Positions 1 to 25,480 of a stretch of DNA of 33,346 nucleotides are shown one piece after another. Location of the stretch: contig JAQTVA010000004.1 of the NCBI GenBank assembly GCA_028707055.1, positions 1-33,346 on the forward strand. The letters run 5' to 3'. The notes beneath the pieces were generated by a model. It worked only from the letters and a program-made list of their open reading frames with translations. It was not told the DNA's origin and searched no databases. Positions within the stretch are counted from its first letter, which is position 1, and each line of letters opens with the position of its first letter. The stretch is from Candidatus Bipolaricaulis sp. (GTDB lineage: Bacteria > Bipolaricaulota > Bipolaricaulia > UBA7950 > UBA9294). The translations under genes and the position numbers were made by a program.

Positions 1-3000
1 CGTCGCGCTTCGGAGCGACGCCGCCGAGGCCTGGATCCACAACCCCGACTCCCGGTTGTCCGCGATCGACGAACCGATCATCAACAGGGCCGATCGCTCG
101 ACGAGACGGACGCCGACGCCGTGGTTCTCGGAGATCAGCGTGTCATCAAGGAGCGCCGCCACCGACCGCGTGAGCGACAGCCCACCCAGTCCGTTCGCCG
201 CCACAAGGGTATCGAGCGCCATGAACGCCGTCTGGGCCACCGCCTCGATTCCCCAGCCCTGGTTGTCGCGGATCGTGCTCCCGCTGAACGATGCGGGGGA
301 GTTGTCGAGCACGACGCCGGACGCCGGATGCTCGGACACCGTGGAATCGAGCATCGTCACAGTCGCATTCGACGTGTGAATCGCCACGTCACCGTTCGCT
401 CGGATGGACGACCCCGCGGCGACAACCGCCGAGCTGTCGATGAGATCGAGCGCGTACGATGCGTTCCCGCTGACGGTGCTCGCGGACACCGTAATCTGCG
501 AGTTCGACGCCAGGATTCCGATTCCCTGGTTGCCGGAGAGCGCGCTGCCGACCAGCTCCAACGAAGCACGATCGAGTCGCACCCCGTCCGTGGGGTGACG
601 GCTGATCGTCGTGTCGTCGAAGGCGACGGTCGACAGAACCGCGGTGACCCCAGGCCCTTGGTTGTCCTCGATTCGCGAACTGCGCACGTCGGCGCGGGAG
701 TCGGCGAGGTCAAGCGCGGCCGCTCCGTGCTGGCGAATCGTCGTCCCGGAGATGGCAATCGTGCCGCCCACCGCGGCGATGGCTCGTGCGCTGTTCTCGT
801 AGACCTCGCAATCCTGCAGATCGATCGAGCTTTGGTCCAGGACGATCGCGTCGCTCGGGTGCCGTGTCACCGAGCTGCCGACCAATGTGACCCGGGACTT
901 CTCCGCCGCGTCCACGGCTGAATCCCCGTTCCCCGAGAACAGGCACGTCGACGCCGTGATGGATGTGGCCGCCACGTGGAGGGCGTCGCCCCGGTTCTCG
1001 GTGATCGTGCATCCTTGAAGCGTGCCCTTCGACGCCTGAGCCTGCACAGCGTCGCCGCCGTTGCTCTCGATCGCCGAGTCGCGCAGCTTGGCGGAGCTGT
1101 CGACGAGGACGACGGCGTCGTCCGTGTGTCCCGAGACGACGCTTCCCGCCGAGAGGTTGACGATCCCCTGCTCGGCGACGATCCCATTCGCTCCGTTCCC
1201 CTCCAACTCGCTGCCGCTCGCATCCACGGCGGAGTCGACCACTCGAACCCCGCCGGCGCCGTTCCCCGCAACCCGTGACGAGCCGAATTGACACGTTGTG
1301 CCGTCGCTTCCCTCGACTCCCCAGCCACGGTTTGCCTGGACCTCGCTCTCGATCGCTTCGGCGTCCGTCCTCACGAGAGTCATCCCGTTCCCGGGATGAC
1401 CGGAGATCACCGTCGCGTCGAGGAGCACCTTTCCCCCCGTCGATTCGATCCCGACGGTTCCGTTGTCGCGGATCTTCGTGTCCACCGACTCCACCGAACT
1501 CGAGTCCAGAGAAACCCCCGCTGCGCCGTTTCTGGCGACCGAGCACGCCGCCAGCTTCACCTCGCTGTTGGCAATCGCCGTCACCCCACATCGACGGTTG
1601 TCCTCGATCTTCGAGAGCTCGACGTCGGCCTTGCTCCCCTGCAGTCGCATGCCGTCCTGGGGGTGGGCGGTGATCTCCGAGTTCCCGACCTGCAAGCTCG
1701 TCCCCACGGCCTCGACTCCGTATCCGGTGTTCGCCGTGATCGTGCTTCCCTTGACTTCGGCGAATGCGCCGCTCAGAACGACCCCGCTGGCGGCATTCCC
1801 TTGGATGGCACTGCCGTCGGCGACGCGAAGAACGCAGTGGTCCCCGCGCACGCCTTCCTTCTGGTTGGCTTCCACGCGGCTCGCGCGAACATCGGCCGTG
1901 GAGTCGAGAAGACGGACTCCGCCTTCCGGGTGTCCGGAGACGCGGGTGCCAACGAGGGTCACGCGCGACCGTGCCTTGGCGTCGATTCCGCTCTTCCCGT
2001 TGGTGGCAACCGCCCCGCCCTCGATCCGAACCTGAGCGAAGTCGAGGCTCGCCCCGCCTTCCGCGTTGTTCTCCATCGTGCTGTTCTGGAACTCCGCGCC
2101 CGACGACGTCGCATGCAGACCCAACCCGCCGTTCTTCGATACGTCCAATCCCACGGCGTGAAGAGATGCCTTCGCGAGGAGGATCCCGTGCGACGCATTG
2201 GCGCGGATGGCTCCGCCTTCCGAGGAGGCCACGGAGTGCAACGCGCGCAGCCCCACGCCTCCGCTCCGCTCGATCGTCGTGCCCTCGAAGCCGGCCGCCG
2301 CGTTCTGCAGCACGACTCCGTCCTTCGGATGGTCCGCGACGAGGCAATCTACGAGCGAAGCCGTCGAATCCACGGCGTAGAGACCTTCCTCACGGTTCTC
2401 GATGACCTCCGAGCCGGTGAGGTCGGCGGTCGAGTTGATGAGATCGACGCCTCGCCGGGCGTTGCCGGCCACCTGCGTCGTCGCGAGGACGATCGTGGAC
2501 ACCATGCCGGCGATTCCGTGGCCGCCGCTCGTCAGGATTTCGCAGTCGAGGAAGTCCCCCGAGCTGTTGGCCAGGCGCACACCGTCATCCGGATGTTCGG
2601 CGACCGTCGTTTCGGTCGCGGTCACGCTGGAGTTGCTGTGCCCGTGAATGCCGTGGATGCCGTTCGTGCGGATCTCCGACCTCAGGATGTCGGCCAGCGC
2701 GTGCTCGAGGAGCACGCCGTTCTGCGTGTTGTCGTGCACGCGGCTGTCCGCGAGCGCCAGTCGCGAGCCAATCTCGAACACACCCTCAAGGCGGTTGTGC
2801 GAGACGTCCGTCGTCGAGACCTGTCCGGAGCTTCGCTCCATGCGGATTCCGTGCTGCGGATGCTCCAAGATCGCCGATCCCGAGACTCGGGCCTCGGCGT
2901 CGACAAGCGAAATGCCGTTCTCCCCATTCGCGCGGACCGTGCTGTCCGCGACATCGACGAAGCTCTGCTCGGCGAGAACCCCGTTGGCTGCGTTCTCGAG

Positions 3001-4722
3001 GATCTCCGACGCGCTGCCGACGTACAAGGTCGACTCGTCCAGCGCGTACAGACCCTGTTTCCGGTTGCCTTGAACGAGGCTTGTCTCGACGGTCCCCGCC
3101 GAAGCACTGAGAAGAACTCCGTGCTCCGCGTTGCCGACAATCGCCGAGTGGTCCGTCACCGTCACGGTCGAGGCCGATCGCGCGTGCACCCCGTTCGCGC
3201 CGTTGCTCTCCACGCGGCTCGTCGAGATGTCGACGCGTGACGCCTCCGCCAACACGCCGTCGGCGACGTTCCCCGTCACCGTGGTCGCGGCAAGGCTTCC
3301 CTCCGCGCCTGTGGCCGCGCTGACGCCGTGGCGCTCATTCGAACGCACCTCGGACCCACGGAGCGCTCCCACCGCCGACTCGATCCGAACTCCATCCACC
3401 CCGTTGGCCGACACGACGCAACCCTGACGGACCTCGCCGCGCCCGCTTCCGTAGACGTAGACTCCATAGCGGACGTTGGCGCGAACGGTGCCTCCGGCGA
3501 TCGCACCGGACGACGCATCCACGGTGACCCCGTCCAATCCGTTCTCGGAGAGGGTGGAGTCGACCACCTCGCACGATCCGCTCCCCTCGACGAGGATGCC
3601 CGAGAGCCCGTTCTCCGAGATCGTTGAGGACGCCACGTAGGCGCTCCCGTAGTGGACGCGGAGGCCCTGCCCCGCGTTCTTGGATACCTTCGAGCTTGAC
3701 ACCGATGCGGCGGACGACGTCGTGACCGAGATCCCATCGCTCCCCTGGTCGGTCACGGACGTGCTCGTGACCGTCACATCGCTCCCCTCCGAGACGAGGA
3801 TGCCGAACCCGGCGTTGCCCACGACCGTGCTCGCCGAGATGCTGCCCGTGGAGCGGACGTACATCACCGCGGCGTCAGGATGCCCGCTGATCGTCGCGCC
3901 GTCCACGTGGACGGCGGCGTCCTCTCCGCGCACGCCGACGCCCCGGTTGTCGACGACCTCCGCCCCTCCACGCAGCGTGAAGGTGGCCCCAGAGACGAAG
4001 ACACCGCCCGAACCGTTCCCCGAGATCCGCGTCGGGGCTCCCCCGTCGGCGAATCGAACGGTCGACTCCCCATCGACGACGATCCCATACCCCTCGTTGG
4101 ATGTGAACTCGCACGCAGCGATGTCGGCCGAGCCGGAGTGAATGACGATCCCGCCGGCATTTCGACTCACGACGCAGGATGTCATCGCCAGCTTCGCACT
4201 CGTTCCGATCCCGCCACCCAACTCGACACCCCATCCCCCGTTGTCGACGATCTCGCAGCCCGACAGCGTGAACCCGCCTCCCCGCAGCCCCGCTTCGCTG
4301 TTTCCCTGGATGACACACCCGTCGAGGGTGACCGTCGACGTCGCGTCGAGCTCGATGGCCACAGATCCGCCCTGCAGGGTGAGGTCTTGGATCACGATGC
4401 CGGTGCAGTTCTCGAACCGCAAGACCGGGAGCGTCGCATCTCGCCCGGAAATGACGATCGCGCGCTGCTCGTCCGGGGAGGCGAACACGGTGACATTCTG
4501 CTTGTCCCTCACAACGACCGTCTCGCGGATCGGGCGGGTGATCTCGATCTTGCCCCCCTTCGAGACCTGCCGAAACGCCGCCGACAGCGAGGGCGTGGTG
4601 TCGGGAACCAGGATCCTCCCACGATTCTCAAAGTCCGTGGGCTGTCCTACCCCCATCAGGCACGCGATGATGACCGATCCCAGGGCCAAACCCAGGACAC
4701 TCCTTCGGGATGACCAACGCAT
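1..4722 (-). CDS. Giant secreted right-handed parallel beta-helix repeat protein (3' end beyond window)
   Basis: Minus-strand frame from ATG at 4722 (SD GGAGGAGG upstream). Starts MRWSSRRSVLGLALGSVIIACLMGVGQPTDFENRGRILVPDTTPSLSAAFRQVSKGGKIEITRP. I read positions 1-3180 triplet by triplet and found no in-frame tta/cta/tca, and translated the rest without a stop, giving >=1574 codons. About 22-aa repeats of the form S-x-(I/V)-xxNGxxG(V/I)xVxxS, typical of pectate-lyase-like beta-helix rungs. Not in the ORF track because it runs off the window edge. Confidence 0.93.
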   Translation of the reverse strand, partial: MRWSSRRSVLGLALGSVIIACLMGVGQPTDFENRGRILVPDTTPSLSAAFRQVSKGGKIEITRPIRETVVVRDKQNVTVFASPDEQRAIVISGRDATLPVLRFENCTGIVIQDLTLQGGSVAIELDATSTVTLDGCVIQGNSEAGLRGGGFTLSGCEIVDNGGWGVELGGGIGTSAKLAMTSCVVSRNAGGIVIHSGSADIAACEFTSNEGYGIVVDGESTVRFADGGAPTRISGNGSGGVFVSGATFTLRGGAEVVDNRGVGVRGEDAAVHVDGATISGHPDAAVMYVRSTGSISASTVVGNAGFGILVSEGSDVTVTSTSVTDQGSDGISVTTSSAASVSSSKVSKNAGQGLRVHYGSAYVASSTISENGLSGILVEGSGSCEVVDSTLSENGLDGVTVDASSGAIAGGTVRANVRYGVYVYGSGRGEVRQGCVVSANGVDGVRIESAVGALRGSEVRSNERHGVSAATGAEGSLAATTVTGNVADGVLAEASRVDISTSRVESNGANGVHARSASTVTVTDHSAIVGNAEHGVLLSASAGTVETSLVQGNRKQGLYALDESTLYVGSASEILENAANGVLAEQSFVDVADSTVRANGENGISLVDAEARVSGSAILEHPQHGIRMERSSGQVSTTDVSHNRLEGVFEIGSRLALADSRVHDNTQNGVLLEHALADILRSEIRTNGIHGIHGHSNSSVTATETTVAEHPDDGVRLANSSGDFLDCEILTSGGHGIAGMVSTIVLATTQVAGNARRGVDLINSTADLTGSEVIENREEGLYAVDSTASLVDCLVADHPKDGVVLQNAAAGFEGTTIERSGGVGLRALHSVASSEGGAIRANASHGILLAKASLHAVGLDVSKNGGLGLHATSSGAEFQNSTMENNAEGGASLDFAQVRIEGGAVATNGKSGIDAKARSRVTLVGTRVSGHPEGGVRLLDSTADVRASRVEANQKEGVRGDHCVLRVADGSAIQGNAASGVVLSGAFAEVKGSTITANTGYGVEAVGTSLQVGNSEITAHPQDGMRLQGSKADVELSKIEDNRRCGVTAIANSEVKLAACSVARNGAAGVSLDSSSVESVDTKIRDNGTVGIESTGGKVLLDATVISGHPGNGMTLVRTDAEAIESEVQANRGWGVEGSDGTTCQFGSSRVAGNGAGGVRVVDSAVDASGSELEGNGANGIVAEQGIVNLSAGSVVSGHTDDAVVLVDSSAKLRDSAIESNGGDAVQAQASKGTLQGCTITENRGDALHVAATSITASTCLFSGNGDSAVDAAEKSRVTLVGSSVTRHPSDAIVLDQSSIDLQDCEVYENSARAIAAVGGTIAISGTTIRQHGAAALDLADSRADVRSSRIEDNQGPGVTAVLSTVAFDDTTISRHPTDGVRLDRASLELVGSALSGNQGIGILASNSQITVSASTVSGNASYALDLIDSSAVVAAGSSIRANGDVAIHTSNATVTMLDSTVSEHPASGVVLDNSPASFSGSTIRDNQGWGIEAVAQTAFMALDTLVAANGLGGLSLTRSVAALLDDTLISENHGVGVRLVERSALLMIGSSIADNRESGLWIQASAASLRSAT

Positions 4723-4868
4723 GAGAACCTCCTCCCCGCGGCGACTCGCGCCGCTCTCCACGCACGTCTCGCTGTGCAACGTCGACCGAAGAACGCGGTT
4801 TACTCACCTACCCTGCCGCCCCGGGCGGGGTGTCGCCGGCAACGTCATAACTCTGCCACAAGTGTGCT

Positions 4869-4897
4869 TTGGCCGTCCCACAACCGAGGGGTATCCT
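4869..4897 (+). promoter_or_regulatory. Putative sigma70-type promoter of efflux operon (TTGGCC-N17-TATCCT)
   Basis: TTGGCC 4869-4874, 17-nt spacer, TATCCT 4892-4897; about 50 nt upstream of the GTG start with SD. Confidence 0.5.
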
Positions 4898-4946
4898 CTC
4901 GCCCGGAATGTTTGGATATGCCGGAAACACGCAGGAGGTGTCCCAG

Positions 4947-6338
4947 GTGCTGGTCCTACGCGTAGGCCATCGGGCGACGCTGGTTCTCTTGCTCCTTCTC
5001 ATCGTGCTCACGGTACCCGGAATGGCGTCCGCCGGGCAATCACGCGAGATCTCTCCGTCGGAGGCCATCGAGCGGGCCGTCGAGAACGACTTCGGACTTT
5101 GTCAGGCGAGGCTCGGCCTAAGTCTCGCCGTTCTCGAGCTTCGCGCCGCCAAGCTCTCCCTGTACCTTCCAACCGTCGGGTTCGCGCTCGACCTTCCCGA
5201 CCTCACGAACAACGGTCCCGGACAGGAGATCGGTGCTTCCCTCACGGCGTCGATCCCTGTCCCGTGGGGAAGCGGAAGTGTGACCGGGGGCGTCGGCTTC
5301 AGCTACAACGCGTCGACGTCCGAGCTTGTCGCACCGACGTGGAACGTGTCCCTCTCGGAGATCCTCGACCTTGCCCATCTCGACGGCCGCTCGGAGACGA
5401 TCCATACGCTCCAGCAGACGCTGGAGAGTGCCGAGCGATCCTACCGGACGGCCCATGCCGATCTTGTGATCTCAACGATTCGGACCTACGGAGACCTGCT
5501 CTCCGAAGCGCAGCAGGCAGAGCAGGACCTCCAGACGGTGGATCGCCTCACGACACGGCTCGGCCAGATCGAGGAGCTCGCCGCCCAGGGATACAAGGGC
5601 GAGTTGGACGTGAATGAGGCAAGACTCCTTGTGCTCGAGGCGGAGGTGCGAGCGGAGAAGAGCGCCGCCGTGTACGCGACCGACCTCGAAGCGTTCGGCC
5701 GGGAGACCCTCGGCGTCGAAGAGCCGTATCGCCTTTCGCCGTTCACCCTTTCGACGGGCGATCTCGTATTGTCCGCACGTGCCCTCCTCGCGGCGGAGAT
5801 CCCCACGAGTGCGATCTCCGACTCCTCGACGGTGATCGCTGCCCAACAGGGTGTAGCCGACGCCGAGGACGCCCTGCGGGAGGCGCGTGTCGGCGTGTTG
5901 CCGTCTTTGTCCGTCGAGGCCGCCGTAAGCGCCGACGAGTGGCGCGTGGGCCTCGGCCTGTCGCTCGACCTGTTCGACCCCGAGCGCGGCGCCGAGATCG
6001 AGATCGCGAAGATCGATCTCGAACTGGCGCAGGAGAAGCTGGGCTCGGCACGTGAGACGGTCCGCAACGCGATCCTCAGTCTGAAGTCTTCTCTCCTCTC
6101 AGCCGTCCGGAGTGCGGAGAGCCTGACGCTCGAGACCGAGGCGTGGCAGCTCGAAGAGCAGGTCAAGTCCGCGAAGCGCGACGCCGGCAGTCTCTCTGAC
6201 AGCGACTGGGCTGAGTTCCTCGAGGAGAAGGGCGCATTCGGGATCGAGGCGGCGAGCCGCTCGACCTCGCTCCTCGTCGCACACCTCGCGTATCGCAACG
6301 CCTTGGGAATGGAGCTGGATTGGGAGGAATGGCTGTGA
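4947..6338 (+). CDS. TolC-family outer membrane efflux protein
   Basis: Signal peptide LVLRVGHRATLVLLLLLIVLTVPGMASAG, then long helical TolC-like architecture (SPSEAIERAVEND...; E-rich coiled-coil). SD AGGAGG 4933-4938 precedes GTG 4947. Followed directly by MFP and ABC genes. Confidence 0.85.
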   Translation: MLVLRVGHRATLVLLLLLIVLTVPGMASAGQSREISPSEAIERAVENDFGLCQARLGLSLAVLELRAAKLSLYLPTVGFALDLPDLTNNGPGQEIGASLTASIPVPWGSGSVTGGVGFSYNASTSELVAPTWNVSLSEILDLAHLDGRSETIHTLQQTLESAERSYRTAHADLVISTIRTYGDLLSEAQQAEQDLQTVDRLTTRLGQIEELAAQGYKGELDVNEARLLVLEAEVRAEKSAAVYATDLEAFGRETLGVEEPYRLSPFTLSTGDLVLSARALLAAEIPTSAISDSSTVIAAQQGVADAEDALREARVGVLPSLSVEAAVSADEWRVGLGLSLDLFDPERGAEIEIAKIDLELAQEKLGSARETVRNAILSLKSSLLSAVRSAESLTLETEAWQLEEQVKSAKRDAGSLSDSDWAEFLEEKGAFGIEAASRSTSLLVAHLAYRNALGMELDWEEWL

Positions 6339-7375
6339 AGATGAAACGAAGAACCTGGAGGATCATGGCCGGGGTCGGGTTGGGGGTCGTGGCGGGAGCG
6401 ATCGCCCTCGTGCTGCTGCTCAACCGCTTCGGCAAGGACGAAGCCGCGGTCGCCGTTCCGACGTTTGAGGTTCAGCGAGGCGACGTCACGAACAGCCTCG
6501 TCGTCTACGGGACCGTCCAGCCGAACCAGGAGTACACCTTCACGTTCGACGGGGATCGAGTCGACTCGCTCCTCGTGAGCGTCGGGGAGCGCGTGACCGA
6601 GGGACAGGCGCTGGTCAAGCTCGATCCGTCTCAGCAGGAACTGGCGCTCCTCCAGGCCGAACGAGCCCTCGCCGAGGCCAAAGCCGGCGGCGTCCGCGCC
6701 GAGATGAAGGAGAAGGAACTCGCCCTGAGGATCGCACAGGCCAACTACGACAGCGCGACGCTCGCGGCCCCCTTTGCCGGCGTCGTGACAGAGATCAACC
6801 AGGCGGCGGGCTCCAACGAGCTCTGGACGCTTCTTCTGATCGACACGAGCGCGCTGTACCTCGAGGTTGAGATCGACCAACTGGACGCCCCCTCCGTCGC
6901 CGTGGGTCAACCCGCGACCGCGGTCATCGAACCGCTTCCCACCAAGACGTGGGACGTCGAGATCACCGAGATCGCCGGCATGGCCGAGGAGTTGGGCAAC
7001 AGCACGGTCGTCATCGCGAAGGCGAGCTTCCCGTACGCCGATCCGCGCGTTCTCGTCGGATACACGGTGGAGATGGAGATCATCACGTCGTCCGCAACGA
7101 ATGTGCTCATCGCGCCGCTCTCGTACCTCACCGAGACGCCGCGGGGGTGGATCGTGACGAAAGTCGTCGACGGGCAGCCGCAGCCGCAGGCCGTGACCGT
7201 CGGCGTGACGTCCGACACGGTTGCGGAGATCACGAACGGCCTCCAGGAGGGCGATGTGCTTCGGAGCGCCGCGAGGTCCGGGGCGGCCGGCCCGACGAAG
7301 ACCCAGGAGAGCGGTCAGAACCCCGGCAGCGGAGTGCCGATGATGGTCCAGTTCAACGGGCCCGGGATGCCGTAA
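6329..7375 (+). CDS. HlyD/MacA-type periplasmic adaptor (membrane fusion protein)
   Basis: N-terminal TM, lipoyl-like halves (GTVQPNQEYTFTFDGDRVDSLLVSVGERVTEGQALVKLDP ... ATLAAPFAGVVTEINQAAGS), operon context. Start ATG at 6329 or 6341. Confidence 0.9.
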   Translation: MAVKMKRRTWRIMAGVGLGVVAGAIALVLLLNRFGKDEAAVAVPTFEVQRGDVTNSLVVYGTVQPNQEYTFTFDGDRVDSLLVSVGERVTEGQALVKLDPSQQELALLQAERALAEAKAGGVRAEMKEKELALRIAQANYDSATLAAPFAGVVTEINQAAGSNELWTLLLIDTSALYLEVEIDQLDAPSVAVGQPATAVIEPLPTKTWDVEITEIAGMAEELGNSTVVIAKASFPYADPRVLVGYTVEMEIITSSATNVLIAPLSYLTETPRGWIVTKVVDGQPQPQAVTVGVTSDTVAEITNGLQEGDVLRSAARSGAAGPTKTQESGQNPGSGVPMMVQFNGPGMP

Positions 7376-7380
7376 CCGCC

Positions 7381-8064
7381 ATGATCGAACTCAAGAACGT
7401 CACCAAGGACTATCCGATGGGGGAACTCGTCTACCACGCGCTGCGCGGGGTCACCTTCGACATCCGTGAGCATGAGTTCGCCGCGATCACCGGGCACTCC
7501 GGATCGGGGAAGTCGACCCTCCTGCACATCCTCGGGGCTCTGCACCGCCCGACCTCGGGGGACGCGCTGTTCGACGGGGAGAACCTCGGAGCGATGTCGC
7601 GCGAGGCGCTCGCGAAGATCCGGAACGAGAAGATCGGTTTCATCTTCCAGCAGTTCTTCCTTCTCCCGCGGGCGACGGCCCAAGCGAACGTCGAGCTGCC
7701 CCTCGCCTACGCCGGCGTCCCGAGAAGAAAGCGGGCGGAGATTGCGCGTGCCTGCCTCGAACGCGTAGGTCTCACCGACCATGCCCACCATCGCCCGACG
7801 CAGCTGTCGGGAGGGCAGTCCCAGCGGGTGGCGATCGCTCGCGGCCTCGCGAACTCGCCTCGCTTGATCCTCGGAGACGAGCCGACAGGAAACCTCGACA
7901 GCCACACGACAAGCGAGATCATGGCCTTCTTCCACTCCCTTCACGACGAAGGGCGGACGATCGTCCTCGTCACCCACGAACAGGAGATCGCGCAGGTCAC
8001 GAAGCGCGAGATCGTCCTCAAGGACGGGCTCATCGCGGAGGACAACCACAATGGGACTTCATGA
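7381..8064 (+). CDS. ABC transporter ATP-binding protein (MacB/LolD type)
   Basis: Walker [10 protein letters not shown], signature [16 protein letters not shown], Walker [14 protein letters not shown]. True start [15 protein letters not shown] at 7381, inside the longer track ORF 6949-8064. Confidence 0.96.
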
Positions 8065-9280
8065 GATGTTGCGGACCGCTGTGACGGCGCTCCGCGCCCA
8101 CAAGATGCGAACCACGCTGTCCGTCCTGGGCATCGTGATCGGCGTCGCCGCGATCGTGGCGATCATCGCGATCGTCAACGGCGCTACGGCCTCAATGAAG
8201 GAGCAGATCTCCGGACTCGGAATGCGGACGATCAACGTGACGATCTTCCCGAACGCCATCTCTGCCGCCTCGTCGGCGCGGGCGCTCACGGACGAGTTGA
8301 CCGGTCGGTTCGAAGCCTTGCCGAGCGTCTCCAAGGCCGTGCCGACGTCGTCCTCCAACGCGCGGGCGATCATCGATGGGGAGGAGTACTCCGCTTCGAT
8401 CGCGGGTGTCGTGCCGGAGTACGCCGAGCTGTTCGACGGCTTCTACCCTACGAGCGGTCGATTCATCTACTCGATGGACGACAACCGGCGGGTCGTCGTT
8501 CTCGGCGCCGGGTTCGCCGAAGACTACTTCGCCGGCGAGGATCCGGTCGGCCGTCGCATCACGCTCGAGATCTCCAACCAGAAACTGGCATTCACGATCA
8601 TCGGCGTCATGAGCGCGCGCGGACGCGTCGGCATGCAGGACCTCGACGACACGATCTTCGTGCCTCTGTCCACGGTCCAGCTTCTATCCGGATCACGCCA
8701 GTTCACGTCGTACATCGCCCAGGCCGAGAGCGAGACCGTCGTCGACACCGCCGCGGAGGAGATCGAAGGGGTCCTCAAGGAGGTCATCTCAACCACCTCG
8801 ACCTCCGGATCGAGCAGTTGGCGCGGTCCCAGAACTCCCTACAACGTGTCGCTCCAGCAGCAGTTCATCGAGACGTACGAGTCCACCGTGGGGACCATGA
8901 CCCTCATCCTGGGTGGCGTGGCGGCGATCGCGCTCCTCGTCGGCGGGATTGGGATCATGAACATCATGCTTGTCTCGGTGACGGAGCGGACCCGAGAGAT
9001 CGGCATCCGCCTCGCCATTGGGGCGCGTCCACGCGACATCCGGACCCAATTCCTTGTGGAAGCTATCCTCACCAGCTCGCTCGGCGGACTGATCGGACTC
9101 GCCGCGGGGTGGCTGTGCGCCTGGCTCGGGTCGCTGCTTGGCGACTGGCCGTTCGTCATGTCCGTCTATCCGGCGCTCCTGGCGGTGGGGTTCTCGCTTC
9201 TGATCGGGGTCACTTTCGGCCTGTACCCGGCCGTTCGCGCGGCTCGGCTCGATCCAGTGGAAGCCTTACGGTACGAGTGA
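8051..9280 (+). CDS. ABC transporter permease (MacB/FtsX family)
   Basis: MLRTAVTALRAHKMRTTLSVLGIVIGVAAIVAI... and C-terminal GGIGIMNIMLVSVTERTREIGIRLAIGARPRDIRTQFLVEA motif; overlaps the ATPase gene by 14 nt. Confidence 0.95.
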   Translation: MGLHEMLRTAVTALRAHKMRTTLSVLGIVIGVAAIVAIIAIVNGATASMKEQISGLGMRTINVTIFPNAISAASSARALTDELTGRFEALPSVSKAVPTSSSNARAIIDGEEYSASIAGVVPEYAELFDGFYPTSGRFIYSMDDNRRVVVLGAGFAEDYFAGEDPVGRRITLEISNQKLAFTIIGVMSARGRVGMQDLDDTIFVPLSTVQLLSGSRQFTSYIAQAESETVVDTAAEEIEGVLKEVISTTSTSGSSSWRGPRTPYNVSLQQQFIETYESTVGTMTLILGGVAAIALLVGGIGIMNIMLVSVTERTREIGIRLAIGARPRDIRTQFLVEAILTSSLGGLIGLAAGWLCAWLGSLLGDWPFVMSVYPALLAVGFSLLIGVTFGLYPAVRAARLDPVEALRYE

Positions 9281-10854: not shown

Positions 10855-11550
10855 TCAGTCCGTTGGACCGGACGAGGCGTCGGTGGGAGCCTCAAAGAGG
10901 TGTCGAAAGAGGTACTGCTGCAGCTCGGCCAGCCGGTCGAGTGCGGACGCAATGCGGATGCGATGTTCGATGGGGAAGGCCGTCGGGCGTTTCCCGCGGA
11001 TCCGCTCCGCGTCAATCGTCGGCGCGGGGTCCTTGGCGCGCTGATCGATGTCGAGCGACACGTAGCTCAGCGCCTCCCGCGCCTTGAAGATCTCGACGAC
11101 GCCTTCCTCCGAGATGTTCACCGCGTCGGCAAGCTCGGAGAGCGTCGGAAGGCGCCCCGTTTCGCGGAGAAGACGGGCCTCGGCAGTCTCGATCTGGCGG
11201 TTGAGGTCGTTCATCCACGGCGGCACACGAAAGGATTGCTCCCGATCGCGGATGTGTTGACGAATCTCACCTCGGATCAGGTTTCCGGCATACTCGCGGA
11301 ACGGCCGGCCGCGCGCGAGCTCAAGGTTGCACACTGCGTTCAACAACCCAAGATATCCGGCGCGAAACAGGTCCTCCGCCGAATACCCGCTACGCGCGAA
11401 GGACTCCGCGATCACCTCGTAGACCCACGGGGTCGCCCGTCGCAGAGCCTCCTCGCGAACGCTTCCGTCTGCGTCTCCACGCCGGAGCAGGTCGATGAGA
11501 TCGGCGTCCGCGTCACGCGGCGCTCCGTCGCGCCGTCCGTTGGTCGCCAT
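10855..11550 (-). CDS. Sigma-70-family protein with regions 2 and 3 but lacking region 4.2
   Basis: AEDLFRAGYLGLLNAVCNLELARGRPFREYAGNLIRGEIRQHIRDREQSFRVPPWMNDLNRQI (region 2), LPTLSELADAVNISEEGVVEIFKA (region 3). Ends ALDRLAELQQYLFRHLFEAPTDASSGPTD* where the HTH should begin. Start ATG 11550 lies 2 nt after the upstream stop. Confidence 0.9.
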   Translation of the reverse strand: MATNGRRDGAPRDADADLIDLLRRGDADGSVREEALRRATPWVYEVIAESFARSGYSAEDLFRAGYLGLLNAVCNLELARGRPFREYAGNLIRGEIRQHIRDREQSFRVPPWMNDLNRQIETAEARLLRETGRLPTLSELADAVNISEEGVVEIFKAREALSYVSLDIDQRAKDPAPTIDAERIRGKRPTAFPIEHRIRIASALDRLAELQQYLFRHLFEAPTDASSGPTD

Positions 11551-11552
11551 GG

Positions 11553-12722
11553 TCAGATCGCGAAGTGGAAGCCGAACGTGACAAGCTCGATTCCCGCGAA
11601 GTCGAACTCGACGTGTGTGAAGAGAACCACTCCCGAGAAGGTCACCTTCGCACAGACGCACTGCTCGGCGAACCCGCCGGCATCAAAGGTCGTCAGGCTG
11701 ACGAAGGTCACCGGCCCGAACGCCGCCTCGATCGCGATCCGCTCCTCGCTGAACAGGAACACGTCATCGAACGACGTCGCGCTGGTCACCAGCACGCCGC
11801 AGACCGCGAACGAGACGCCAAACTGCTGACCGGAGAAGGCGATCGGGATCACCGTCGGAACGACGGGAGCCGCGAACGTCGTCGACGAGGTGAAGCGCAC
11901 CGCCGCGATCTCGAGGTCGAGGATGAACCCCGCCCCCACAATCCCGAAGGTGCCGTCGAGGGTCATCGTGGTCAGGAAACGGAACGCGGGGTCGTCGAAA
12001 CGATAACCCAACTCGAACAGCATCCTGTCTAGCCCGTACGCGTCGAACCATGTCGTGTTGCTCGCCATCATCCCGAGGTAGTCGACCTCGAGTCGAACGA
12101 GCTCTTCTTCGAAGTAGAAGCCGCCGACGATCGTCACATCGAGATCGGCCGTCTCGGCACACAGCGCATCCAGGTGTCCGAACAGAGCGAGCAGTTGGTG
12201 GGAGAACGGTGCCTCGATCCCGTCGAGCAGGTTCACCAGGTCCACGGCGCCGAATCCGGTCAAGCTGGTGATCGCGAACCCGCAGGCGATGTTGCTCCCG
12301 AGCTCGAACACAACTCCCGTGCTGTACGAGGGGGTCTGCGGCCCGCCGATGTCGGCCAGAATCCAATGCATCCCGATGTCGATGCCGACGATCGACAGGT
12401 CGAAGGACAAGTCGTTCCAGACGAAGTAGGGTTCGAATCGGATCTCTTCCGCGATGCGTACCGCACCGAGATCCACGGCGATCGTCAGGGCTTCGGAGAC
12501 GAAGCCGCTCAAGCTGAACGCAGTCTCTGAGAGCAACCCCACGCCGGTGAAGGCGAATCCGAGCGTGAGCTCGGAGGTGATGTCGTAGGACGGTGGCACC
12601 GGAGCGTACGTCACCTCCAGCCCGATGTCGGCGGAGAAGCCGAGGCCCCCAGCCGTCGCCACCCCGCTTGACGCGAGGAGCAGGGCAATCACTGCAACCC
12701 ACTGCGCGCTCATCCGATGCAT
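11553..12722 (-). CDS. Secreted beta-strand-rich (possible outer-membrane beta-barrel) protein, unknown family
   Basis: Signal peptide MHRMSAQWVAVIALLLASSGVATAG; alternating hydrophobic pattern throughout; ends ...VEFDFAGIELVTFGFHFAI*; SD GGAGGAGG before ATG. Confidence 0.75.
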   Translation of the reverse strand: MHRMSAQWVAVIALLLASSGVATAGGLGFSADIGLEVTYAPVPPSYDITSELTLGFAFTGVGLLSETAFSLSGFVSEALTIAVDLGAVRIAEEIRFEPYFVWNDLSFDLSIVGIDIGMHWILADIGGPQTPSYSTGVVFELGSNIACGFAITSLTGFGAVDLVNLLDGIEAPFSHQLLALFGHLDALCAETADLDVTIVGGFYFEEELVRLEVDYLGMMASNTTWFDAYGLDRMLFELGYRFDDPAFRFLTTMTLDGTFGIVGAGFILDLEIAAVRFTSSTTFAAPVVPTVIPIAFSGQQFGVSFAVCGVLVTSATSFDDVFLFSEERIAIEAAFGPVTFVSLTTFDAGGFAEQCVCAKVTFSGVVLFTHVEFDFAGIELVTFGFHFAI

Positions 12723-12901
12723 GAGTCTCCTCCTCCCAAGACGGACGGTCCTGGCTCGCTCCCCAAGCGTAGGTAGGCGCGAGGAGACTCAGGCGGAAAT
12801 GCGACAGAGAGTGAGCGTGGATTCGTCACCGGTTGCAGGGACACCTGTACCGTCGTCTCCTTACGAGACAAACGGCGGGCTCGGCCGCGGACGGCGCTTC
12901 C

Positions 12902-24267: not shown

Positions 24268-24316
24268 ATCCGAGAACCCGACTGCCTGAGAGCGGTATAC
24301 TCTTCGCGGAGGCACT

Positions 24317-25174
24317 TTGAGCGACGCCAAGCGCACGGAGCGTCGACCGCGATCGGTCGCGTTCGACCAGCTCAACAACGAGGAGCTGATCGGCCTTCTG
24401 CGCAGAATGGATCCTGCGGGACGCACCGACGGCGAGGCTCTGCGGCTGCGTGAGGAGATCGTCTCGCGGAACATCGGTCTGGTGAAGTCGATCGCCGCCA
24501 AGTTCCTTTCCTCCGGTGAGCCCCTCGACGACCTGATCCAGGCGGGGTATATCGGTCTTCTCAACGCCGTGGCCAACTTCGACTTGGCGCGCAACACCCG
24601 GTTCTCGACGTACGCGACGTACCTGATTCAGGGAGAAATCCGCCACTTCATCCGCGACAAGCACGCTCCGATCCGCGTACCTCAGTGGGTGCAGACCATG
24701 AACCGTCGGATCAAGGAGGCCGAGGAGGCGCTCTTCAAGGAGCATGGGCGGGCTCCGACGTTGGCGGAATTGGCGGGCTCCCTCGACCTGACAACGGATC
24801 AGCTCGCGGCGCTGCTCCGTGGGCGGGAGTCGATGACGTACGTCTCGATCGATCGGGACCGCCGGTCGACGGACCCGAACCCGTCTCCTCCGTCACTCGA
24901 CGAGGTTCTGCCTCCGCTGCGCGAAGACATGCCGCTCCATACGCGACTCCGCATTGCCGTAGCCATCGAGGAGCTGGCCGAGATCCAGCGGCAGATCATC
25001 GACGGGCTCTTCTACCGAGGCAAGAGCCAGTCGGAAGTCGGACAGGAGCTTGGAATCTCCCAGCGCCAGGTCTCGCGGATCAAGGATCGAGCGCTCTCCG
25101 ATCTTCGCGATAGCCTAACCCGGGCGGCCGATTCGGCGAACCGGGAAACTGGAGAGGGACATGACGTGGAATAA
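24317..25174 (+). CDS. Sigma-70 family RNA polymerase sigma factor (group 3 type, full length)
   Basis: TTG start with GGAGG SD. DDLIQAGYIGLLNAVANFDLARNTRFSTYATYLIQGEIRHFIRDKHAPIRVPQWVQ (region 2), APTLAELAGSLDLTTDQL (region 3), KSQSEVGQELGISQRQVSRIKDRALSDLRDSL (region 4.2). Confidence 0.95.
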   Translation: MSDAKRTERRPRSVAFDQLNNEELIGLLRRMDPAGRTDGEALRLREEIVSRNIGLVKSIAAKFLSSGEPLDDLIQAGYIGLLNAVANFDLARNTRFSTYATYLIQGEIRHFIRDKHAPIRVPQWVQTMNRRIKEAEEALFKEHGRAPTLAELAGSLDLTTDQLAALLRGRESMTYVSIDRDRRSTDPNPSPPSLDEVLPPLREDMPLHTRLRIAVAIEELAEIQRQIIDGLFYRGKSQSEVGQELGISQRQVSRIKDRALSDLRDSLTRAADSANRETGEGHDVE

Positions 25175-25198
25175 TCCGAGCGTGTGGGGAGAAGCAAC

Positions 25199-25480
25199 GT
25201 GAATCGAACCGAAGAACGAGCGGACCTCTTGCTGTTGATCGGGCACGCGATCGACGGCTTGCGACGATCGATCGATGACCTCGACACGGCGAACCGTACC
25301 GACGGGCTCCTCCATCTCGGCCAGGTGATCCGTGAGATCGAAGACTACATCGAGCACATCCACGAGGATCCCCTGCTCGGGCTCGCTCCCGTAGCGCCGG
25401 CGCACATCCGGTCCGGGTTGCTGAAGGTACGCGACGATCTCGCCATGGTGATTCGGGATCTTGGCCAACCCACGACGTAG
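25199..25480 (+). CDS. Small helical protein of unknown function
   Basis: GTG start with GGGAGA upstream; NRTEERADLLLLIGHAIDGLRRSIDDLDTANRTDGLLHLGQVIREIEDYIEHIHEDPLLG...; 24 nt downstream of the sigma gene. Confidence 0.65.
   Translation: MNRTEERADLLLLIGHAIDGLRRSIDDLDTANRTDGLLHLGQVIREIEDYIEHIHEDPLLGLAPVAPAHIRSGLLKVRDDLAMVIRDLGQPTT

Follow-up and report, generated by a model that had tools for sequence, protein, structure and literature searches.

What can a sigma-70-family protein do if it ends just before the domain that reads the -35 element? This question is raised by a gene on the minus strand of the window (the whole stretch of 33,346 nucleotides that we analyzed), at 10855..11550, which runs from an ATG to a TGA and encodes 231 amino acids. 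We will call this protein T. The same window encodes a full-length sister of the SigB/F/G type (24317..25174, plus strand), in which Pfam finds regions 2, 3, and 4; we will call it F. To our knowledge, the main examples of sigma factors functioning without region 4 are those of phage T4 and a single split pair in Bacillus.

Judging from Pfam, the alignment, and an AF2 model, T covers regions 2.1-2.4, 3.0-3.1, and 3.2 plus helix 4.1, and then ends before region 4.2. The Pfam hits are Sigma70_r2 (1.2e-8) and Sigma70_r3 (8.2e-9), both above the cut-off, with no other Pfam domain. We placed the end of T between helix 4.1 and the HTH of region 4.2 because its C-terminus (IEHRIRIASALDRLAELQQYLFRHLF) aligns to helix 4.1 of F (LHTRLRIAVAIEELAEIQRQIIDGLF). 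Where the full-length sisters have the HTH, T has a short, variable tail (10855..10893, minus strand). In the AF2 model (mean pLDDT 85.9), helix 4.1 corresponds to residues 194-219. A Foldseek search with this model matched sigma factors only, at low whole-chain TM-scores (0.2-0.4). The best NCBIfam model for T is TIGR02980 (SigBFG), with a score of 110 against a cut-off of 234. In the 600 nucleotides downstream of T and of its homologues, read in six frames, there was no significant remnant of region 4. The original prediction had T stopping where region 4.2 should begin, with regions 2 and 3 conserved and a frameshift made unlikely by the lack of a downstream HTH remnant, and these results bear it out.

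The shortened form is conserved across Bipolaricaulota. T's own genome is a Candidatus Bipolaricaulota (Acetothermia) assembly too, going by those of its relatives that carry names. In all 31 of the complete homologues that we examined (209-237 amino acids), the chain ends 2-19 residues past position 219 of T, which is mostly an L-F that closes helix 4.1; the 29 full-length F proteins extend 40-56 residues past the matching point. Most genomes of T's own family have a homologue of T, and so do a second family of the order and, in a third family, some scattered genera. The homologues form a clade separate from F (support 0.988), and T and F cluster together against RpoD-type outgroups (support 0.71). 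The T homologues have zero inner stops and a dN/dS of about 0.1-0.23, and T evolves under purifying selection. We also looked for orthologues with region 4.2 in place, which the original prediction had named as the sign of an assembly error or local pseudogenization, and there were none among the 31; the relatives carry proteins of similar length with a common endpoint. So the shortening is real and clean, as had been claimed; the wide conservation of T and its pairing with a porin gene had gone unnoticed. The viral contigs that we searched gave no relative, and the best hits in phages were only distant matches (under 30% identity). We found no paper on T in the open literature, using a corpus that lacks most subscription journals.

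The partner of T is encoded directly upstream, at 11553..12722 on the same strand. It is a porin-like outer-membrane beta-barrel with a signal peptide, and in the window its stop lies 2 nucleotides before the start of T. The AF2 model of the barrel (pLDDT 89) has about 23 predicted beta strands, and Foldseek matches it to porins and TonB-type barrels. A secreted-protein gene lies directly upstream of T, on the same strand, in 21/21 loci examined, and further loci from family f4 are alike. This partner has about 400 amino acids in most loci (303 in G056). Across loci, the start codon of T is a few nucleotides from the barrel stop, and none of the upstream sequences that we inspected had a Shine-Dalgarno site before T; by contrast, a strong site precedes the barrel gene. 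Because T starts next to the barrel stop without its own Shine-Dalgarno site, we infer that its translation is coupled to barrel synthesis. An HtrA-like gene downstream of T is not conserved as a neighbor, and we rejected it as a functional partner. An Rfam search of this region of the window gave no match. Some barrel genes of family f4 have no T beside them (L186, L188, L191, L193, and L194), and the next ORF in these loci, of about 320-345 amino acids, looks peroxiredoxin-like from its N-terminus.

Elsewhere in the window, an open frame of about 1,600 codons (1-4803, minus strand) has a signal-peptide-like start and runs off the window. Its repeats are of the kind common in secreted proteins with a parallel beta-helix, and the long ORFs that overlap it on the plus strand are probably spurious. 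From reading the ORFs, there is an apparent efflux cluster of the TolC-HlyD-MacB type at 4869-9280 (plus strand), with an outer-membrane factor, an adaptor, an ATPase, and a permease.

To see where T occurs, we scored 100 genomes from the phylum for T, F, and the barrel. T was present in 31/31 genomes with both the barrel and F, in 4/45 genomes with the barrel in which F was undetected (these four are 58-85% complete), and in 0/10 genomes with F but no barrel. In its gene content, T depends on both F and the barrel. Among barrel-bearing genomes, the association of T with F has a Fisher p of 3e-6 at the genus level; for family f4 by itself, p is 0.005. These values are confounded by phylogeny. 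The T-bearing members of f4 group together in the barrel tree, with weak support; there might therefore have been just two or three joint losses, or one joint transfer, and the co-occurrence of T and F may rest on few independent events.

F itself has a conserved neighbor. Directly behind it is an ORF of 98 amino acids (25184..25480, plus strand), and a small ORF is conserved in this position in nearly all of the loci that we examined. These proteins have about 85-118 amino acids, are helical, and have no match in Pfam. The small protein is our first candidate for a cofactor of F or for an anti-sigma factor or other antagonist. We saw no SpoIIAB- or RsbW-like anti-sigma factor in T's own genome, where HATPase_c_2 hits fall only in frames of about 550 amino acids, so a SpoIIAB/RsbW partner switch is unsupported there as the target of T. 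A -10-like TATACT box lies upstream of F (24296-24301, plus strand) and is present before many F genes; F looks to be driven by a housekeeping-type promoter.

Both the residues of T and how they are constrained suggest something other than an ordinary sigma factor. By alignment, the position of the core-binding glutamine of sigma70 (Q406) corresponds to R63 of T, in region 2.2 (codon 11362..11364, minus strand). It is glutamine in 29/29 F proteins and is arginine (23), histidine (7), or lysine (1) in the 31 T proteins. At the same position, the Q80R change in sigma32 reportedly lowers affinity for the core enzyme. The adjoining D403 equivalent is mostly glutamate in T, and a K-S in region 2.1 of F has become mostly acidic. 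Across the same 22 genomes, T diverges faster than F in region 2 (1.89x in 2.1, 2.21x in 2.2, and 2.35x in 2.3-2.4), and more slowly in regions 3.0-3.1 (0.94x), region 3.2 (0.81x), and helix 4.1 (0.77x); the relaxation of region 2 in T is thus one in comparison with F only, and in absolute terms this region is still well conserved, with many invariant columns. Helix 4.1 retains its hydrophobic positions even though the HTH that packs on them is missing.

On the DNA side of region 2, F84, N90, R97, and R101 are invariant in T, and position 87 is tyrosine or phenylalanine. The DNA contacts of Staphylococcus aureus SigB include F86, R97, R100, and R110 (PMC11156646); in T, the equivalents of F86 (as tyrosine or phenylalanine) and R100 are kept, that of R97 is lost, and that of R110 is variable. 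We had considered the loss of "ST" from the FSTYA motif as proof that T is inactive, but we dropped this argument because the active SigB of S. aureus has "EA" there.

We prefer the explanation that T, most likely a decoy, regulates the F pathway as a sigma-like protein, instead of serving as a sigma factor in its own right, and is coupled to the synthesis of the porin-like barrel; we give this somewhat less than an even chance. T would be a functional offshoot of the F type that has lost the domain for reading the -35 element and some of the usual contact with RNA polymerase. Because its gene is directly behind the barrel gene without its own Shine-Dalgarno site, T would be made when the barrel is made. 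It would imitate F through its region 3, linker 3.2, and helix 4.1, and what it deceives in this way would most likely be an antagonist that otherwise keeps F bound (the small protein encoded behind F would be the first candidate). F would then be released as porin synthesis rises, and T would not itself initiate transcription.

This explanation is consistent with the shared endpoint of a distinct clade under selection, with the co-occurrence of T, F, and the barrel, with the changes in regions 2.1 and 2.2, with the faster divergence of region 2 beside the constrained parts that follow it, and with the conserved small ORF behind F. There is also a precedent in PhyR, a sigma mimic whose core-binding and promoter-binding regions are degenerate (PMC8103513, PMC4814048). 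The original prediction had offered a decoy as one of three ideas, and a decoy or regulatory role is the best supported of these, indirectly, by the co-occurrence with F and the loss of the core-binding glutamine. On the other side, the invariant DNA-side residues and the aromatic at position 87 exceed what a pure decoy should need, and the small protein behind F is a candidate binder only, in a genome with no SpoIIAB- or RsbW-like anti-sigma factor seen. Furthermore, the four genomes with T in which F was undetected (all incomplete) and the possibly small number of independent events count against a decoy.

Could T instead be an active sigma factor that serves promoters lacking a -35 element, in line with the idea of extended -10 promoters in the original prediction? 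The -10 element would be read by region 2 and the bases just upstream by region 3, and an activator bound farther upstream would take the place of region 4, much as gp55 of phage T4 works with gp33 and gp45. The DNA-side residues of region 2 and region 3.2 are kept in T, which fits, and T4 gp55, a region-2-type protein without region 4, initiates at -10-only promoters (PMC7892883). The barrel-T operon is also preceded by a promoter-like region (12765..12843, minus strand). Across 20 loci it follows the pattern TGTCC-N10-GGACAAA-N22-TTTCC-N23-TAnnCTT with fixed spacing, as found by a register search that maximizes matches to these four elements themselves; the window has the variant TGTCC-N10-TGACGAA. 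Flanking positions that were not scored (ACA) are conserved too, which gives ACAnn-TGTCC-N10-GGACAAA-N22-TTTCC-N23-TAnnCTT. No -35 hexamer is conserved at the usual distance (17 bp) in these 20 T loci.

But f4 genomes that lack T and F have the same layout before the barrel, with TTTCC decayed and the inverted-repeat and TA parts present. The promoter therefore belongs to the barrel gene and does not prove T to be its sigma factor. The loss of the Q406 equivalent in every T also argues against an initiator, and this reading gives no reason for T's need for F. With about one exact copy of the inverted-repeat pattern per genome, there is no sign of a wider regulon. Overall, we think it unlikely that T is an active sigma factor, though this is the strongest of the rival explanations. 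By eye, we saw no motif common to the promoters of F and of the T operon (F has only the housekeeping-like TATACT). More broadly, the rigid layout of the barrel promoter (loci L070-L089 and L180-L197) is kept across families and is partly decayed where T is absent. Upstream of the barrel gene in the f4 loci L180-L182, a GC-rich inverted repeat (GGGCGGCC...GGCCGCCC) surrounds GGACAAA and could form a hairpin, either in RNA or in DNA.

Another explanation is that T binds core RNA polymerase without opening promoters and acts as a brake, by competing with F or with other sigma factors for the core or for the beta flap. The parts of T that are most constrained relative to F are region 3.2 and helix 4.1, which in the holoenzyme extend in the direction of the flap and the RNA exit channel. 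A competitor of F would also explain why T and F co-occur. However, the residue that is most diagnostic for binding to the clamp helices is changed in every T, which should weaken the competition. We consider a brake of this kind quite unlikely.

Slimmer still is the chance that T contributes regions 2 and 3 to a two-subunit sigma factor and relies on another protein for region 4, like the SigO-RsoA pair of Bacillus. The retained helix 4.1, with its hydrophobic positions, would suit the docking of a separate HTH. The original prediction had suggested such a partner and a search for stand-alone sigma4 proteins, but we found none in T's own genome (86% complete) and no such gene adjoining T. The own-genome hits over the Pfam cut-off for region 4 were ordinary sigma or ECF genes (RpoD, an RpoS-like protein, a third sigma factor, F, and three ECF genes) or a DUF134-like gene, and the weaker hits were response-regulator and transposase genes. 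In five related genomes that encode T, every strong region-4 hit lay in a frame of at least 171 amino acids. This was mostly a check of frame sizes; the two ORFs that we read were both ECF factors with region 2. A highly diverged partner may yet exist. Finally, an assembly error, a frameshift, or a decaying pseudogene can be set aside almost entirely: the source of the window is an incomplete metagenome assembly, which is all that favors such an error, and it is countered by 31 independently assembled homologues that share the endpoint, by their intact frames and low dN/dS, and by the missing region-4 remnant.

We see it as an even call whether T is a chromosomal, deeply conserved, porin-coupled member of the sigma family without region 4 that either informs its sister F about porin synthesis by mimicry or works in the cell as a sigma factor that always does without a -35 element. 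As a conserved cellular family whose gene content ties it to a porin and to a full-length sister, T is an experiment of nature on how far regions 2, 3, and 3.2 can go when -35 recognition is absent. T also suggests a way for the synthesis of outer-membrane proteins to act on sigma control without a transmembrane anti-sigma factor.

How does T compare to known systems? Like T, the T4 late sigma factor gp55 (which works with gp33 and gp45) belongs to the sigma family and lacks region 4. But gp55 consists of a region 2 domain and a helix-loop-helix, with no region 3, while T has region 3. Also, gp33 sits on the flap in place of region 4, and we found no equivalent of gp33 for T. In the SigO-RsoA pair of Bacillus subtilis, as in T, region 2 is naturally apart from region 4. 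In this pair, region 4 comes from SigO, and RsoA contributes just region 2 (PMC8103513, PMC10028694; PMC10141391 assigns the domains differently), whereas T retains region 3 and helix 4.1 and no partner was found for it. PhyR is a sigma-like decoy for an anti-sigma factor in the general stress response of alphaproteobacteria, and it shares with T a sigma-like domain with altered core-binding positions. In PhyR, the promoter contacts are altered as well. Also, the sigma domain of PhyR is ECF-like and is part of a response regulator, while T is of the group 3 type and has neither region 4 nor a receiver domain. By the features that we tested, T appears to belong to none of these three types. It is closest to the group 3 sigma factors (SigB, SigF, and SigG, represented here by F), with which it aligns throughout regions 2, 3, and 3.2 and helix 4.1. 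It differs from them in lacking the HTH of region 4.2, in its changed core-binding glutamine and several other residues of region 2, and in sharing an operon with a porin. T is thus best described as a SigB/F/G-type protein by descent that departs from group 3 in two defining features, region 4 and the core-binding glutamine.
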